From Chaetoceros tenuissimus (lineage: Eukaryota > Bacillariophyta > Thalassiosirophyceae > Chaetocerotales > Chaetocerotaceae): 64,000 bases of DNA. The notes under the pieces are model-generated. The model worked only from the letters and a program-made list of their open reading frames with translations, was not told the DNA's origin and searched no databases. The DNA lies in contig BLLK01000062.1 in NCBI GenBank assembly GCA_021927905.1, positions 2,046,001 to 2,110,000 on the forward strand, read 5' to 3'. The translations under genes were made by a program, and so were the position numbers. Within the stretch, counting starts at the first letter, position 1. Every line of letters starts with the position of its first letter. Positions 6,336 to 60,768 of this stretch are shown here, piece by piece.

Positions 6336-8003
6336 ATGAGTGATACAACTACTGCTCTCTTGGAGGATCTTACCCGTGGTCAGCAAAGACTAGCTGATGG
6401 TATGGATGTCTTCTACAGCCTTTGGGCGGTGAGTTCCTTTACTCTTATTTTTCAAATTTTAAACGACTTCATCTACCCAATACGAATAATCTAATGAACT
6501 TTCAACATTCATTTTGTTCTTCAATTTCAAGGGTGCCATGGTTTTTGGCATGCAGTGTGGATTCGCAATGCTCTGTGCAGGTTCTTTGAGATCCAAAAAT
6601 GCTAAGAACATTATGCTTCAAAATATTCTTGATGCATGTGGAGGAGCACTAGGTTTTTTCATCTGTGGATATGCCTTTGCTTTTGGATCTAATGGAAAAT
6701 TCATTGGATCTAGTGAGGGACTGTTCGTACTCAGTGGTGTTATTGCTGGTACTGACTTAATTGATTTCTTCTTTCAATTTGCTTTCGCTGCATCTGCTGC
6801 AACCATTGTTGCTGGAACCATTGCTGAACGCTGTAAAATGTCTGCATACTTCTGTTATGCTTTAGCTCTTACTGCTTTTGTATACCCTGTTGTAGTACAT
6901 GCTGTTTGGAACTCTGACGGATTCCTTTCCATCGCAAATGCGAATCCACTTCGTGGAGTTGGTATGATTGATTTTGCAGGTTCTGCCGTAGTACATATGA
7001 CAGGAGGAATGTGCGCTCTTATTGGAGCAATCATTCTTGGGCCTCGTATTGGCAGATTCTACGATGAGAGTGGAAAACCACTTGAAACTCCAGCAACCTT
7101 TGCTCCTCATTCCGTTTCTCTTCAAATCCTTGGTACATTCAGTAAGTTGCTCATCTAGTGTTTTTATCCAGATTGATTGGGTTATGAGCTGTAAAGTCCT
7201 GAGGCTCAATTGATTTTGCTTGATTTCATCTTCTAATCACCTTTCTACTACTAGTCCTTTGGTTCGGTTGGTATGGTTTCAACGCTGGATCAACTTTGGG
7301 AATCTCCGCAGAAGGATATGCTGATGTTGCTGCTCTTGCTGCTGTAAACACTACTCTCTCTGGAGCATGTGCAGCCGTATCAGCAATCCTCCTTGACGCC
7401 ATCTTCTATTACCAAGAAATTGGAGAGGTTCATTATGACTTGACCATGGCAATGAACGGTAGCTTGACTGGGCTTGTTGGAGTAACTGGAGCATGTGCAT
7501 GTGTTGAACCTTGGGCTGCATGTATCATTGGAATTGTTAGTGGATTCACCTACTGTCTTGGAAGTATCCTCCTTGTCAAGTTGAAGATTGACGATGCTGT
7601 AGATGGAGTCCCTGTACATCTCTTTGGAGGTATTTGGGGATGCATTGCAACAGGACTCTTTGCTTCTCCTCGCCGCACTGTCACTGCTTTCGGAGACAGC
7701 ATGCAGAATTTCGGATGGTTCTACTCTTGGGGACGTGGAAGTGGAGATGCAAACCTTCTTCTTGTAGAGTTCATCGGAATCCTCTTTGTAGCTGGATGGA
7801 CCCTCCTCATCATGGTACCTTTCTTCACTCTCCTTGATTTCTTCGGGCTCTACAGAGTTGATGTACTTGAGGAGATGGTTGGTATGGATGAGTCTCGTCA
7901 CAAGGGATCTGCTTACAATATCGAGGATGTTGATAGAGAGCACATGGATAAACTCGAAAAGAAACGCCAGAGCCTCGATAATCTCAGCAGCAAAGATGTA
8001 TAA
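6336..8003 (+). CDS. AMT1: Ammonium transporter, AMT1 type
   Basis: Three exons, 6336-6428, 6532-7141 and 7255-8003, encode 483 residues. Introns are 103 and 113 nt with GTGAGT and GTAAGT donors. Joins restore YSLWA|GAMVFGMQCGFAML and LGTF|ILWFGWYGFNAGS, both standard Amt blocks. Family hallmarks are visible: GFAMLCAGSLRSKNAKNIMLQN in the first membrane segments, the recruitment and pore Asp-His block IDFAGSAVVHMTGG, and the second pore His in VPVHLFGGIWG. About eleven membrane segments are expected. Amt proteins form trimers in the plasma membrane that import ammonium; the short N-terminus without a signal peptide is normal for this family. The C-terminal tail is charged and long enough for the usual regulatory contact between subunits. 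A CCAAT box lies upstream. The exact paralog number cannot be told. Confidence 0.95.
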
Positions 8004-8516
8004 ACATAATGAATGGGGGGGGGGTATATTCAAAATAGATCCGAAGTAGATTTCAAATTAAAGAATGAATGTTGTCAGTGCTTCAGTTTAAATTCTTCTT
8101 GCTCACTCAAGTAACTACTCAGTCCTGGACTTTGCTCATGATTAGTTTTAGTTTGTTGTTTTTTGTGTTGTGAGGGATTGTAATGAATGGATGGTGTATT
8201 ATGCTACACTTTTATTCAGTACTTTCAAAAGTGCCGGGAGTTGCACGGAAATTGGGGCTTCGCACTCTGCCATTTTTGCTGTTTTGCTCAAAAATAGAAT
8301 ACCCTTTCTTTTTTAGGGGATCTTTTTCATCTTCATGGTTGGAAAATACGTACGTTTCGACAGACAAAAGTGACCGTGATATCTACCACACACCACACAT
8401 CCTTCGTTCTCTCTATTTTCCATTATACTTTAGCGAAAAACGAAGTATTCTTTTCCTCATCTACTTTGCTTTAATTAGTTCCATAATATCTTTATTTATA
8501 CTTACTTTGCAGCAGT
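8004..8516. other. Intergenic with a G10 homopolymer
   Basis: About 510 bases between two rightward genes. It starts with the ammonium transporter 3' UTR, which holds a run of ten G at 8015-8024. The second part should be the HIS3 promoter and possibly an unplaced first exon: TTTGCAG at about 8508-8514 just before the HIS3 ATG looks like a splice acceptor, but I could not find a matching coding donor. Confidence 0.4.
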
Positions 8517-9779
8517 ATGACAGAGCTTACAGTTTCAGGAGTGCAGGCAATCGATCTTGCCAAATCTACCAATCCCATCAACACTGGTATCGGCTTTTTC
8601 GATCACATGCTTGATCAATTTAATTCCCACGCACAAATTGGAGTTTCAGCAACTGTAACTAGTACAGAGGGGGATGACCTTGATGATAGAAATAGACATG
8701 GAGATGACAGTCTTCAGTTAGACCTTATGAAAAAGGTCGGAATAGCGCTAGGAGGAGAGATGAAGAAACTTATCCCTTCATCCGCGGGTGAGAGCAGATT
8801 CTGTTGTCCACTAGATGAAGCACTTGTAGAATGTATCATTTCTCCTTCAAATGACAGTCCAAGTTTTATATTTGATCTAGCACCGTATGGAATTTATCCA
8901 AAATCTGGAAGGAAAAAGATTGGACAGATGATGACTTCTCCACTTGAATTCTTTTTTCAAAACCTTTGTATGGCTGCTGGATTAAATGTTTCATTGAAAA
9001 AGATTAGAGGGGATAATGGTCACCATGTAGTTGAGAGTGCATTCAAGGCTTTCTCTCGTGCTCTCCGTAATTTGATTGATGGAACAGATACCACTGGTCA
9101 AGGTGCAAAGATGGAAGAGATGTGGGGGCATTCAAGTCAAAGTGCAAAGGAAGGAGTTGTGATGAAGCGCACTGGATCTTCTAGTCGCAAAACAAAGGAG
9201 ACCACTATCAATGTAGAAATTGATCTCGACGATGGCGTAGAAGGTATAAAAGTTGAAACTGGTATTCAAACTTTGGACAGTTTTTACACTGATTTGGCAA
9301 CAGAAGCTGGCATCTCTCTAAATGTATTTTGTCAAGGAGACCTTTGGGTCGATGATCACCATTCTTCGGAAGATGTATCTATTGCTATTGGAAAAGTGTT
9401 GAATACTGCACTTGGAACCAAAGCTGGCTTAAATAGAATGTGGTGTTCTAGAGCTCAATGTAATGACTCCATTGTAGAAGTAACAATGGACCTTTCGAAT
9501 AGACCATGCTTGACTTCAAATTTGTCTCTTAGTGACTACACCGAAGATTGTGAATATGTTGGAGATATGAGTGTTGAAATGCTGGAACATGCATTGGACT
9601 CTCTTGTAATGAATGGGCAAATGACTGTGCATATTTTGGAATGCGAAAAGGGAAGTGACATTCGCAATTTGGCAACTGCTACAGCATTAGCTTTCGGAAA
9701 GGCTTTGAGATTGTGTGCTGCGGTAGACCCAAGAAGAGCAGGAAAGACTGCGAGTAGCAAAGGGACTCTTTCAGTTTAG
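8517..9779 (+). CDS. HIS3: Imidazoleglycerol-phosphate dehydratase with two tandem, complementary domains
   Basis: IGPD catalyses the sixth step of histidine synthesis, removing water from imidazole glycerol phosphate. The usual enzyme is about 200 residues; this one is 420 and holds two IGPD domains. Domain 1 (about 1-190) keeps FFDHMLDQ (27-34), PLDEAL (98-103) and GDNGHHVVESAFKA (165-178), but the DDHHTVED motif is replaced by DDRNRHGDDS (56-65). Domain 2 (about 224-420) keeps the N-terminal RKTKET (224-229), DDHHSSED (279-286), DLSNRP (325-330) and the C-terminal SSKGTL (413-418), but has TLDSFYTD (252-259) in place of FLDHMLDQ and SDIRNLATATALAF (380-393) in place of the second HHxxE block. 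Each half therefore lacks metal-site motifs that the other keeps. No organelle presequence is seen. A missing 5' exon is possible, since domain 1 lacks its own RxTxET strand. Confidence 0.9.
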   Translation: MTELTVSGVQAIDLAKSTNPINTGIGFFDHMLDQFNSHAQIGVSATVTSTEGDDLDDRNRHGDDSLQLDLMKKVGIALGGEMKKLIPSSAGESRFCCPLDEALVECIISPSNDSPSFIFDLAPYGIYPKSGRKKIGQMMTSPLEFFFQNLCMAAGLNVSLKKIRGDNGHHVVESAFKAFSRALRNLIDGTDTTGQGAKMEEMWGHSSQSAKEGVVMKRTGSSSRKTKETTINVEIDLDDGVEGIKVETGIQTLDSFYTDLATEAGISLNVFCQGDLWVDDHHSSEDVSIAIGKVLNTALGTKAGLNRMWCSRAQCNDSIVEVTMDLSNRPCLTSNLSLSDYTEDCEYVGDMSVEMLEHALDSLVMNGQMTVHILECEKGSDIRNLATATALAFGKALRLCAAVDPRRAGKTASSKGTLSV

Positions 9780-37993: not shown

Positions 37994-40900
37994 ATGTCTG
38001 AGCTACCTCTTTTCGTTCTATACGGATCTGCAACTGGTAATGCAGAGTCTATAGCCAAAGGCTTGGCAGCAAAGTACAAAGATAACGTACCTTCTCCATT
38101 CAACAAGGTTGTTTGTTATGAAGCCAACGAGTTTAAGAAGAAATGCCTACCAATTTGGGAAAAAGAGCCACCAGCTGATGTTGCAAGAAAATATGGGGTC
38201 GTATTTGTTACTTCCACAACTGGTAACGGAGATTCACCAGAGAATAGTGGTCGCTTTTTACGTTATTTGAAGAGAAAGACTACTATTGAAAGTCTAGCTA
38301 TGAAACATGTTGCTTTTGGTGTTTTAGGATTAGGGGACACCAATTATGATATGTTTTGTGAAAGTGGAAAAGTTGCAGATCGCAAGTTTGACGAAGCAGG
38401 AGGAGAAAGAGTTAAGCCCTTAGGTATGGCAGATGAAGGGACTGGAAATCTCGAAGATGTTGTGGAGGCTTGGGTCGAGGATATTGTTCCAATTTTAGCG
38501 AAGGCATGTTGTGTTCAGTCTAATGTCGTAAAAGTTGAAGAAGAAAAGAAAACTGATGAGATTAGTGCACCTATTCAAAATCAACCAGGATCAAGACCTA
38601 ATGTTCCTACAATGATGGCTGGCAGACCAAATGTGCAAGCTATTTTGAATCAAAGAATGGGGCGACCTGCTCCCGCAGCTGGCAGACCGAACGTGCAAGC
38701 TATATTGAATCAAAGAATGGGAAAATCCGTACCAGCACCTAGTTCAAGCGTAGAAGCCGAAGAGAAGAAAGAAGATGTAGCTGATCTCAAAAGCCCGTCA
38801 CCACTATTTATTCTATATGGATCAGCTACTGGAAACGCAGAGCAGATTGCAAAAGATCTTGCAAGCAAATATGAAAAGAAAATTTCTGAGAACAGTGATG
38901 AATGCTACTTTCCAAGTGTTGTTTGTTGTGAATTAGATCAATATAAAAAGAAATGCCTCAGCACTTGGGAGGATGATACCAAACTTCGAAATGACTTGGG
39001 CCAAAAGCATGGCTTGATAGTTGTGACTTCTACAACTGGCAACGGTGATGCACCAGAGAATGCGTCACGCTTTGTGAGATTCATTAAGAGAAAAAGTACT
39101 GCAGACTCAATGCCATTTAAAAATGTCGTATATGCAGTACTTGGGCTTGGTGATACAAACTACGATCAATTTTGCGAGACTGGCAAAGTTATTGACAAAA
39201 AGTTGAAAGATCTGGGTGGGACACGCTGTATGGATGTTTCGTGTGCTGATGAAGGAACAGGATTAGAGCAAGTTGTGGATCCATTTGTAGCAAGCAGTTT
39301 TGATGTAATCAGTAAGAAATGTATGGGCGTCGATTCTAAAGACATTATTACAAAGTCAAAAAATTCAGTTGTTGAAGAGGAGAAATCCGACGAAAGCCTA
39401 CCAACTCATGTTCTAGAGAGTGTCGGATCAATTGATGATACCATGTCCATGAGTGCTGTGTCCATTGTAAAGAACATACTCGGCCAACAGGTCATTCCTG
39501 AAGTTGACACTTCTTTGTTGCCTTCACTTGGTACGAGCCTTTCTTCTTGTAAACTTTATGATGAAAGTGATATTGTTGATAGGAAATCTTCACGTGGTCT
39601 TTCTCTCTCTGAACTTGAGAGGCTGACTGTATCATCTTGCTCTTCTGGCGCATTTCAGTACACGCATAAGGACCCCTTCGAGAGCACCATCCTCGGAGCA
39701 CGTTACCTGACTGCAACCGATCTTAATGGTGCAAGTCAAGCCTCATCTGCTCTAGATATTGCAAATGATAAGGATTCTAGAGAGGATAAGATCATCAAAG
39801 CAAAACAAAATCTCACGCAATACTTTCCTCTCGATAAAGATGATTCCGAGATGAATGGCAAGAGAGTTATTGAATTGAGGTTGTCACTGCCTGATGATTT
39901 CAGCCTTGACTACCAACCGGGAGATGCAATCGGTTTTGTAGTTTCAAATTCAGCAGAGAATGTGAAATTCATTCTTGATATTCTTCGAAAGCATCACGGT
40001 ATATCTTCTGAGCAAAAAGTATCATTGGATGAGAAGAAACCAATTACAGTAGCAACTGCAATTGCAGATCATATCGATATCTCTTCACCTCTGAAGAATA
40101 AAAGACTCCTTCTGGCTCTTGCCCAATTTGCTACGAACTCAGAAGAGGCTGCTGCTTTGAAGTTGTTGGCATCTAAAGATGCCACTGGAAAAGATTTATT
40201 TCAAAAGTACATTGAAGATCAACGAATGAGTTTCACTGATTTCCTTAAGCAATTTCCATCCTGCCAGGGTATTACTTTAGAGGGTCTTCTATCCATGCTT
40301 CCTGGTATCGCCCCTCGTTACTATTCTATTAGCTCCAGTCCACTAGAATGCAAAGACATTGGTTCTCCTTCTCTTACTGTTGCATTTTCGGTCGTAGATT
40401 ACATGACCCCTCCACTTGCTCTAAAGAACGGCACTAGAATTCAACGACGAACTGGCGGTCTTGCAACCCGTTATCTAGAAGCAATTTCTTCACCCCATCT
40501 AATTGGAGCAAATGAAATTGAACATACTTTCGCTATTGATCGAATTAAGATCTTCCCAAAGCCAACCGACGACTTCAGGCTTCCTTTGAATATTTCTACT
40601 CCTATGATTCTAATTGGTCCAGGTACTGGTGTCGCACCTTTTATGGGCTTCCTTAAGGAAAGGGAAAAGCAACTATCTCATGGAATGGATGTCGCAAGAG
40701 AAGTAAGCGCAGGTACATGGCGTGGCGGCTTTGATTTTGAGGACGAAGAATTATCTGTATCGAAAAAGGACGCAAAAGGTCTCACGTCAAATGCTCAAGA
40801 ACTTGGTGAAATCGCTCTATACTACGGATGCAGACACGAAAAACATGATTGGCTTTACAAAGAGGAGATGAAGAAGCTTAAAGATGACGGTATTGTGAAA

Positions 40901-41182
40901 CATCTAAGACTTGCCTTTTCTAGGGATTCCGACAAAACAAAAACATATGTTCAAAATAAAATGTCAGAAGACTCTGATCTTCTTGGTGAGATGATCATGA
41001 CTAAGAATGCAACTACTTACATTTGCGGAGATGGAAATGCAATGGCTAAGGATGTTCAATCAGCCCTTTTGCATATCATTACAAAGAGAGTTGTAAGAGA
41101 TGGCAAATCTGAAGAGGAGGCACGCCAAATTTTCGAAGAAAAGAAAGCTTCGAACAAAATTTTGTTGGATATATGGAGCTAA
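37994..41182 (+). CDS. Diflavin reductase with two tandem FMN domains, methionine synthase reductase-like
   Basis: A 1062-residue single exon. Flavodoxin domain 1 (about 5-170) has [29 protein letters not shown] and [17 protein letters not shown]. Flavodoxin domain 2 (about 270-435) repeats them: [29 protein letters not shown] and [17 protein letters not shown]. Both keep the phosphate loop and the flavin-stacking strands, so both probably bind FMN. Between them, a motif occurs twice, [14 protein letters not shown], with a third partial copy ([11 protein letters not shown]). A reductase body follows: FAD-binding block [19 protein letters not shown], NADPH block [36 protein letters not shown] and [14 protein letters not shown], and the C-terminal Trp of the family (LLDIWS). 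The stretch [13 protein letters not shown] with [12 protein letters not shown] resembles methionine synthase reductase, which reactivates cobalamin-dependent methionine synthase. No membrane anchor is seen. Confidence 0.88.
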   Translation: [1062 protein letters not shown]

Positions 41183-51432: not shown

Positions 51433-52233
51433 TTACTTCTTTCTTACAAGAATCTCTGGAACTCCAGATCCATCTCTCACAATGAGAATATCCTCATCTA
51501 GGTATACAGCATACAGATCACGACTATATTGAACTGCTTCTGGTAAATCAATACTGTTGCCCAAAACAGTTGCACTCTCATAGGTTTCAGTCAATCTAAC
51601 AGAGGAGAATGTATCAAGTCTAGCATTCACCTTGACTTCATTTGCTGCTCCTCCAAGAAGTGTGACATCAATCTTTGCCTCAATCCTTGGTTGTTCACGA
51701 GAGATTGAGATTTCAAGTTCACCACAGTCGACTAATGAGCTTGGTAGACTGGATGCAAGAGAGAGGGCGAAAAGCCCAGGGGAATAACCACCACTGTATA
51801 CGAATAACGCAATTTGACGAGTAGGACTTTTTACAGCACCAAAATCATCATAGCCTCCTGCATATCGAAGGCTCCAAACTCCGTTCAACAAAGGTGAATA
51901 TGCAGGATCTTCAGTAGGATTCACTTTTTCCAATTCCAAGATAGCTTCGTTGATACTGGCACGGGTCTCTTTCGATACAGATGTCACAACACCTTCTGGA
52001 AGCTCATCAAAAAGAGATGAGATAATTCCTTCGCTCGCAGTTGGTTCAACTACAACAGACTGCACATCAATTGTATCTTCATTACTAGTATCAGATGGTG
52101 AATCATCAGAAAGATCTGACATGAAATAACGAGTATTCGGTCTTACTACATTGCGAGAAATAGAAGGACCCACGTTGAAGGACAAAGCAGAATAAACTGC
52201 AAGAGAAAGAAGAGATAGTTTCGCGTAAAACAT
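51433..52233 (-). CDS. PAP/fibrillin, plastid-targeted
   Basis: 266 residues from the Met of MFYAKLSLLSLAVYSALSF; the frame has an earlier Met eleven residues upstream that would spoil the signal peptide. The signal AKLSLLSLAVYSALS is followed by F and a Ser/Arg-rich stretch (NVGPSISRNVVRPNTRYFM), the bipartite plastid address with an aromatic residue at the cleavage site. The body is a lipocalin-like fibrillin: LLNGVWSLRYAGGYDDFGAV, PGLFALSLASSLPSSLVDCGELEISIS, and a final LYAVYLDEDILIVRDGSGVPEILVRKK, the conserved C-terminal IxRxxxGxxFVxxR equivalent. Fibrillins bind lipids on thylakoids and plastoglobules. It is written leftward, opposite to the Nudix gene. Confidence 0.83.
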   Translation of the reverse strand: MFYAKLSLLSLAVYSALSFNVGPSISRNVVRPNTRYFMSDLSDDSPSDTSNEDTIDVQSVVVEPTASEGIISSLFDELPEGVVTSVSKETRASINEAILELEKVNPTEDPAYSPLLNGVWSLRYAGGYDDFGAVKSPTRQIALFVYSGGYSPGLFALSLASSLPSSLVDCGELEISISREQPRIEAKIDVTLLGGAANEVKVNARLDTFSSVRLTETYESATVLGNSIDLPEAVQYSRDLYAVYLDEDILIVRDGSGVPEILVRKK

Positions 52234-52531
52234 GCTTGATGAAGGATCAATGAATGATGGTAACACAGTTGATTCCTAGATTCTTATTCATTCACAATGC
52301 TATTACTGTGGTACTGTTTGATTGGCGATGGAAGAAAGAGAAAAGAACTGTGGAAAGCTTTTCTTGATGGATGAGGTGGCCCGGTTTATAGCCAAAAGAG
52401 AGAAATCTATTAAATAGCTAGGTATTTAAGATGTCATTGTTTTCGCCTATAAGGTAGGTACAGTTTCCTTTTACTACTTTTATTTTGCTTCATTTGTATT
52501 AAAAATTTACATAAGATTATATTACAAATTT

Positions 52532-59847: not shown

Positions 59848-60768
59848 TCAATCCGAGATATATTTGGATGTCCCTTCTTTTTGAACGGCTTCCCAGTACC
59901 CGTAACCATATTGTAATCCAACTTCCATGGGAACTGTATTGACAAGTCTAACATCTTTTCGAGCAATCACAACTGGCCAAGTCGGAACCAATCCACCTGT
60001 CTTTTCATCTCTAGCAAGTCTCCAGACTAGTTGAAGTATATTGTTACGTTCTGAATTATCAAAGTATTCTTCTTCTGAAGAACTTGGATCAAACGCTAAA
60101 TCATTTGCAAATACTCCCAGAGAAGTAGCCGCAAATTTCGTTTCATCAGTTGGATCGTCTGGAATGAAAATTCTTGATTGAAATTCAGTATCGGGACGGA
60201 TTGTAACCTCACCATTCTCAGAGTCTACCTCAACAAAATGTCCAAAGAGGAAATTTTCTGTATCTTGTTTCTCGGAGTATACATCCCATATAGCGTCACC
60301 CAAAGTCATGAGTTGTTGATTGAAGAAAACAGCTACTGTATCAGCAGATGTATTTTCACCAAACAAAAAACCTACACTTTTATCCCCATCTTGGTCATCC
60401 GAGAAAAATCCTCGTGCATATCCACAAAGAGGCGTTCCTTGAGGAATAATGATTTCTTCGACAACAGACTCCTCATCTTCATCGTCAATATCTTCATAAA
60501 TGCTAAGATATAGCCCTCGTCCGGATGCTACTTGAGATGGACCAACAAGGACACTGAGTGAAAGTTCTCCAACTGCAATTCCACCTTCCATATCGCCAAG
60601 ACTGCTTATAGGTCCAACATATGCCTCAATGTCTTCATGGGAAGAGTAGAGAGCTTTCACATAGCCTCGTTTCAGAGGTATTGACAAGTGTTGTTTCGGG
60701 GTAAATGCATCCACATCCAACAATAATAGAGCGAACGTGAATACGTATACGAAGATAAATTCTTTCAT
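59848..60768 (-). CDS. Plastid-targeted protein, function unknown
   Basis: A 306-residue single exon. MKEFIFVYVFTFALLLLDVDAFTPKQ is a signal peptide followed by DAF-TP, the clearest plastid address (ASAFAP-like) in the window, and a Lys/Arg-rich transit stretch (LKRGYVKALYSS). The body has GGIAVGELSLSVLVGPSQVASGRGLYLSIYE and IPQGTPLCGYARGFFS, two blocks that resemble the entry of SET-domain proteins (A-GRGLF and xG-TPLCGYA), then TLGDAIWDVYSEKQ and LVWRLARDEKTGGLVPTWPVVIARKDV. A SET-like or fold-related plastid protein is possible, but no catalytic Tyr-containing motif can be claimed. Function is unknown. It should act in the stroma or thylakoid membrane. Confidence 0.7.
   Translation of the reverse strand: MKEFIFVYVFTFALLLLDVDAFTPKQHLSIPLKRGYVKALYSSHEDIEAYVGPISSLGDMEGGIAVGELSLSVLVGPSQVASGRGLYLSIYEDIDDEDEESVVEEIIIPQGTPLCGYARGFFSDDQDGDKSVGFLFGENTSADTVAVFFNQQLMTLGDAIWDVYSEKQDTENFLFGHFVEVDSENGEVTIRPDTEFQSRIFIPDDPTDETKFAATSLGVFANDLAFDPSSSEEEYFDNSERNNILQLVWRLARDEKTGGLVPTWPVVIARKDVRLVNTVPMEVGLQYGYGYWEAVQKEGTSKYISD

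Follow-up and report, generated by a model that had tools for sequence, protein, structure and literature searches.

A tandem IGPD in Chaetoceros tenuissimus with a reciprocal division of active-site residues between its two domains

Can two IGPD domains that each lack a different half of the catalytic motifs make up one enzyme when they are joined in a single chain? This question is raised by a 420-aa reading frame in a 64,000-nucleotide stretch of DNA from Chaetoceros tenuissimus (the window), for which the original prediction proposed two IGPD domains within one ORF. Pfam agrees, as each half matches IGPD (PF00475): domain 1, queried as residues 1-205, with E 5.3e-26 and 91.9 bits, and domain 2, queried as residues 206-420, with E 5.6e-37 and 127.5 bits, the cut-off being 27. 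No other Pfam family exceeded its own cut-off in the 420-aa chain, and a phosphatase domain fused to IGPD, the mark of HisNB, was not found in it by Pfam. GC contents at the three codon positions of the ORF (8517-9779) are 0.50, 0.42 and 0.31, and that of the window is 0.39. Among solved structures, phmmer returned 30 distinct sequences, consisting of 18 IGPDs and 12 designed Pizza6 proteins, the latter scoring more weakly. The whole chain also matches 13 NCBIfam families and passes the cut-off of one of them (NF002114, 192.3 vs 189 bits, summed over the two domains); no HisB equivalog cut-off is passed by domain 1 or domain 2 alone. Judged by its sequence, the protein is likely a member of the dehydratase family.

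Structural models point in the same direction. The AF2 model of domain 1, built on an alignment of 32 bacterial IGPDs, reached a mean pLDDT of 80.0 and a pTM of 0.81, and its best PDB match was the IGPD 5el9 (E 1.1e-11). The full-chain model (mean pLDDT 80.9, pTM 0.55) matched the IGPD 4mu4 with E 1.7e-16 and a TM to target of 0.92, presumably through domain 2. For either model, the PDB matches with E <= 0.001 numbered 29 and were all IGPDs. The alignments used for AF2 drew 23 (A3) and 32 (A4) of the best 80 loci described below, and that of the full chain spanned almost only domain 2; for this reason, and in view of the pTM of 0.55, the interdomain geometry of the model was rejected as evidence. 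Profile and model together establish the IGPD fold of both domains.

An ammonium transporter gene lies just upstream of the tandem gene at 6340-8003 (+), with at least three exons by eye and apparent introns that start with GTGAGT and GTAAGT. At 37994-41182 (+), a diflavin reductase-like protein of 1062 aa carries two tandem flavodoxin domains (Pfam Flavodoxin_1, two stretches) before its FAD- and NAD-binding domains and is thus a second tandem-duplicated enzyme in the window. A PAP-fibrillin gene at 51433-52266 (-) and a trehalose-phosphate synthase/phosphatase gene are also present. At 51433-52266 (-) and 59848-60768 (-), the reading frames open with leaders in which ALSF or DAF comes after a hydrophobic stretch; we take them to resemble the plastid-targeting signals of stramenopiles and the bipartite plastid leaders of secondary red algae.

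IGPD is described as a 24-mer of 432 symmetry whose active sites adjoin two-fold axes among the chains A, A' and C (PMC6029752; PMC10978614). In Acanthamoeba, Mn1 is bound by H67A', H40A, H162A and E166A and Mn2 by H66A', E70A', H138A' and H163A, a water is held by D101A, and the phosphate site is lined by K170A, R92C, R114C, S191C and K193C (PMC6029752). For one metal in Medicago, H141, H213 and E145 come from one subunit and H238 from its neighbour (PMC10978614), which is the same division as in Acanthamoeba. The Arabidopsis numbers, used from here on, are E173, H47, H169 and H74 for Mn1 and H170, H145, H73 and E77 for Mn2, the putative catalysts being E21A and E173A, while the phosphate is met by Q51A, H55A, K177A and R99C (PMC4509728); Acanthamoeba residues were matched to them in the present analysis with an offset of 7, or 8 in the C-loop. 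The HHXXE motif was found in all 535 IGPDs, 95 of them eukaryotic, of one survey (PMC7284861).

Both domains were aligned with 80 background rows, namely Arabidopsis IGPD2, Cryptococcus IGPD and 78 bacterial IGPD loci, the last drawn from the 80 best among 588 stretches confirmed in one scan of genome contigs. Two loci (L038 and L051) were left out, because their frames, when read from the match start, hit a stop codon 4 and 2 residues in. In this background, seven of the eight metal-ligand positions do not vary, whereas at position 145 there is Glu in 77 rows and His in 3; conservation at the first HHxxED block is partly by construction, since the scan patterns contain part of it, a bias of which the 535 sequences of PMC7284861 are independent.

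All eight di-manganese ligands are present once per chain, each in exactly one domain. Domain 1 holds H47, H169, H170 and E173 (its own H30, H169, H170 and E173), which are all four ligands of chain A, and lacks the A' set. Domain 2 holds H73, H74, E77 and H145 (its own H281, H282, E285 and H358), which are all four ligands of chain A', and lacks the A set. Mapped onto the subunit roles of the published IGPD structures, the missing metal ligands thus sort by chain in 8 of 8 cases. In the second shell, Q51, H55, D108 and K177 occur in domain 1 only and R121, S199 and K201 in domain 2 only; E21 and R99 are common to both. The alignment reproduces the motif pattern first described, in which domain 1 keeps DHML (H30), PLDEAL (D100) and the second HHxxE without the first HHxxED, and domain 2 keeps RKTKET, DDHHSSED and SSKG without DHML (H replaced by S255) or the second HHxxE (replaced by RNLAT). 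Beyond that description, domain 2 also lacks PLDEAL (replaced by QCNDSI), while in domain 1 position 145 carries no Mn ligand and both R121 and the SSKG of the C-loop are missing. The first HHxxED of domain 1 is replaced by an acidic insertion, EGDDLDDRNRHGDD (window 8650-8735), and the exact register around the lost block is uncertain because of about ten inserted residues. The features are collected in the table.

Table. Features of the tandem IGPD gene, in window coordinates; residue numbers are those of the 420-aa chain, with Arabidopsis equivalents in brackets.
Feature	Position	Strand	Basis or remark
Candidate exon upstream of the ORF	8183/8201-8349	+	Exon with intron, 8201..8512; donor GTACGT at 8350; acceptor end either tttgcag (8512) or cag (8515); many candidate joins, of which this is one
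Tandem IGPD gene	8517..9779	+	Uninterrupted 420-aa ORF; true start possibly farther upstream
Domain 1	8517..9080	+	Residues 1-188; Pfam match 23-183; retains chain A half of site
E3, aligned with catalytic E21	8523..8525	+	E in 80/80 background rows; at edge of uncertain N-terminus
H30 (Mn1 ligand H47), Q34 (Q51), H38 (H55) in FFDHMLDQFNSH	8604..8630	+	Alignment
Residues 53-73, site of first HHxxED, missing in domain 1	8673..8735	+	Insertion of ~10 residues; exact register ambiguous, two alignments differ
D100 (D108; Mn2 water; chain A role)	8814..8816	+	Alignment and PMC6029752
F145 replacing Mn2 ligand H145	8949..8951	+	Alignment
Second HHxxE retained: H169, H170, E173, plus K177	9021..9047	+	Alignment, motif search
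Linker	9081..9167	+	Residues 189-217; occupies place expected for domain 1 C-loop
Domain 2	9168..9776	+	Residues 218-420; Pfam; retains chain A' and chain C site parts
S255 replacing Mn1 ligand H47	9279..9281	+	Alignment
First HHxxE retained: H281 (H73), H282 (H74), E285 (E77)	9357..9371	+	Alignment, motif search
N316 replacing D108	9462..9464	+	Alignment
R329 (R121; phosphate; chain C role)	9501..9503	+	Alignment and PMC6029752
H358 (Mn2 ligand H145; chain A' role)	9588..9590	+	Alignment and PMC6029752
R383, N384, T387, L391 replacing H169, H170, E173, K177	9663..9689	+	Alignment
C-loop S413, K415 (S199, K201; chain C role)	9753..9761	+	Alignment and PMC6029752

The explanation that we favour, and regard as probable, is an obligate composite IGPD that arose by tandem duplication, fusion and complementary site loss, so that a live site would need both domain 1 and domain 2. 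An IGPD gene would have been duplicated in tandem and then fused. In ordinary IGPD the site is shared by neighbouring identical subunits; after the fusion, each domain would have given up the part of it that the other kept. Domain 1 would now serve as chain A only, with H47, H169, H170 and E173 on the metals, D108, the phosphate residues Q51, H55 and K177 and probably E21. Domain 2 would serve only as chain A' (H73, H74, E77 and H145) and chain C (R121 and, in the C-loop, S199 and K201), and a live site would form only where domain 1 meets domain 2 across the two-fold axis. That reciprocal loss might create composite sites was already part of the original prediction; its ligand basis has held, with all eight following the published chain composition, while activity, dead single halves and sole-IGPD status are extrapolations from the pattern.

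Composite sites predict an exact, chain-wise reciprocal loss, which simple decay does not, and the eight metal ligands show this pattern; the original interpretation as a whole is supported in part. Fifteen of the 17 active-site positions are kept in a single domain, two in both (E21 and R99) and none is absent from both. For the remaining near-invariant positions, 41 in number, the corresponding counts are 21 in a single domain, 14 in both and 6 in neither, the last being a point against the favoured explanation. The difference between the two classes gives a Fisher p of 0.007, with the grouping done by hand and position 145 scored as kept in domain 2 though the background majority is Glu.

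A different reading gives the genome an ordinary IGPD as well and makes the tandem protein an additional paralogue, in part degenerate, that would assemble together with it, each domain completing sites with the ordinary subunits or tuning the particle. A second IGPD gene is possible because two ORFs for the IGPD step have been reported in Phaeodactylum tricornutum, according to a diatom review that gives one gene for T. pseudonana (PMC3901274), and the strong divergence of both domains, with median identities to the background rows of 33% for domain 1 and 35% for domain 2, would also suit such a paralogue. An ordinary partner would, however, remove the pressure to keep every ligand, and 0 of the 17 active-site positions are lost twice; we consider this reading doubtful. 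In a quick tree of 82 rows, the two domains had branch lengths of 10 (perhaps the ceiling of the program) and 8.94, and neither had a supported position. Branches as long as these, though they come from a quick tree, are what the favoured explanation leads one to expect, each domain having been relieved of half its duties.

Of 146 prokaryote genomes (phylum of the L001 genome, Rhizonema, cyanobacterium) in a sweep that was not exhaustive, 69 matched and 77 did not, and each of the 69 contained a single IGPD match in a frame of 198-295 aa. Viral contigs were scanned three times, and none of the 1, 64 and 281 pattern matches was confirmed as an IGPD relative. As these searches covered prokaryote genomes and viral contigs, the lack of relatives carries little weight. 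No tandem IGPD was found among the matches listed from the open-licence literature on IGPD and histidine biosynthesis.

The sorting by chain role bears on whether the complementarity could have arisen by chance in a pseudoenzyme that has given up dehydratase activity for another role. Counted by position, 8 of 8 chain A residues and 0 of 7 residues of chains A' and C fall into domain 1 (p 1.6e-4). Adjacent residues go missing together, however; with linked positions combined into 7 motif blocks, p is 0.03, and it is 0.1 when only the A and A' blocks are counted, so that their agreement by itself could be chance. On its own, this statistical support is moderate, and the partition is known from one sequence. 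The stronger argument is that every metal ligand occurs once, being neither lost from both domains nor kept in both, and that the two positions not used in the first description, 145 (Phe in domain 1, His in domain 2) and 108 (Asp and Asn, respectively), fall on the predicted side. Half of the ligands are indeed missing from each domain, as a pseudoenzyme would allow, but the chain roles are matched exactly, including 145, 108, R121 and the C-loop, and the ORF is long and intact with a coding-like base composition. A pseudoenzyme is therefore improbable in our view.

A less certain part of the gene is its start. The sequence tttgcagcag, which resembles a splice acceptor, sits directly before t + ATG. 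In the RxTxE motif of domain 1, the glutamate aligns with E3 and the R and T are missing; because of the acceptor-like sequence, their absence may be an effect of the gene model. A leader, or the first strand that domain 1 lacks, could come from an exon farther upstream, and this N-terminal strand, which is absent or lies in another exon, counts against the favoured explanation. The best spliced join scored 101.0 bits against the profile vs 97.7 unspliced, a difference of 3.3 bits, and none of the many possible GT-AG joins was favoured. One join that places RKTN before MTEL was set aside, since a stop codon precedes it and would call for yet another exon; one that yields a basic leader of ~50 residues was considered and likewise set aside. 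Such an exon could affect the N-terminus only and not the eight ligands. Over both strands of the gene, HHxxE is encoded only twice in all, at 9021 and 9357, and a CAY-CAY (His-His) codon pair was not found in any frame of the + strand in the three missing-motif regions. Each domain has one of the two HHxxE motifs and neither has both, the whole chain having the pair. An artefact of the gene model or sequence, whether through motifs that sit in another exon or frame or through an ORF created by a frameshift or chimera, is very improbable, as splice-like signals just 5' of the ATG and apparent introns elsewhere in the window are outweighed by missing motifs that are encoded in no forward frame of their regions, a single uninterrupted ORF covering both domains and an upstream exon that reaches the N-terminus only.

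Under the composite reading, assembly, metal binding and catalysis of the tandem protein are what we infer from its residues. The simplest assembly would be the octahedral shell of 24 domains that is usual for IGPD, made here of 12 chains in such a way that domain 1 and domain 2 alternate, which would probably give 12 live sites and 12 dead, empty ones. A colouring of the octahedral group (24 positions, 12 per domain type), which takes A and A' as related by a <110> two-fold axis following our own reading of PMC6029752, allows a maximum of 12 live sites, and this maximum is attainable. If domain 2 is also required as chain C, all 12 are kept unless C is the three-fold neighbour of A, in which case the maximum is 8. 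The 12-site layout thus needs chain C to lie beyond the trimer of A, and the sequence would predict C outside that trimer. Perhaps the enzyme is even an obligate asymmetric IGPD, a proposal to which we give an even chance, in which 12 double-domain chains would have half the octahedral symmetry (tetrahedral alternation) and the 12 live and 12 metal-free sites would share the same two-fold axes, the latter being free for structure or regulation. A rebuilt metal site in the acidic insertion of domain 1, which offers one His (H61), is possible.

If the asymmetric proposal is true, an ancient shared-site homo-oligomer would have been tied irreversibly to two unlike copies by complementary loss within one gene. 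Complementary loss predicts that either half would be dead, a mixture or fusion of the two alive, and the metal content per domain halved. IGPD is a herbicide target. Duplicated homo-oligomers with interface sites can in principle be locked into needing both copies by complementary loss, and the loss in the tandem IGPD appears complete and maps residue by residue to published structures, which makes the explanation directly testable. PMC3663545 cites the broader concept that duplicates can carry complementary mutations. The reason for the 24-fold assembly of IGPD is said to be unclear (PMC10978614), and an IGPD from which half the sites are gone would be relevant to that question.

Plant, fungal, amoebal and bacterial single-domain IGPDs (HisB, HIS3 and HISN5; PF00475) share with the tandem protein the fold, the ligand identities and a site shared among A, A' and C. 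Those known are homo-oligomers of one domain that carries both HHxxE motifs, whereas the tandem IGPD has two unlike domains with one HHxxE each. Tandem fusions of former homo-oligomers in which the conserved motifs are parted between the halves occur in herpesvirus dUTPase and the archaeal tRNA-splicing endonuclease. These are other enzymes, however, and their chains work as smaller units with no 24-domain shell. In HisNB, or bifunctional HisB, the IGPD domain is likewise fused in one chain (PMC7284861; PMC8305728), its partner being a histidinol-phosphatase and not, as here, a second IGPD. A further likeness is found in trypanosomatid deoxyhypusine synthase, where activity rises 3000-fold when the enzyme forms a heterotetramer with a catalytically dead paralogue, the human form being a homotetramer with interface sites (PMC3663545). 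Although that is a different enzyme, encoded by two separate genes and activated allosterically (PMC3663545), it resembles the proposed tandem IGPD in that two diverged copies are needed together.
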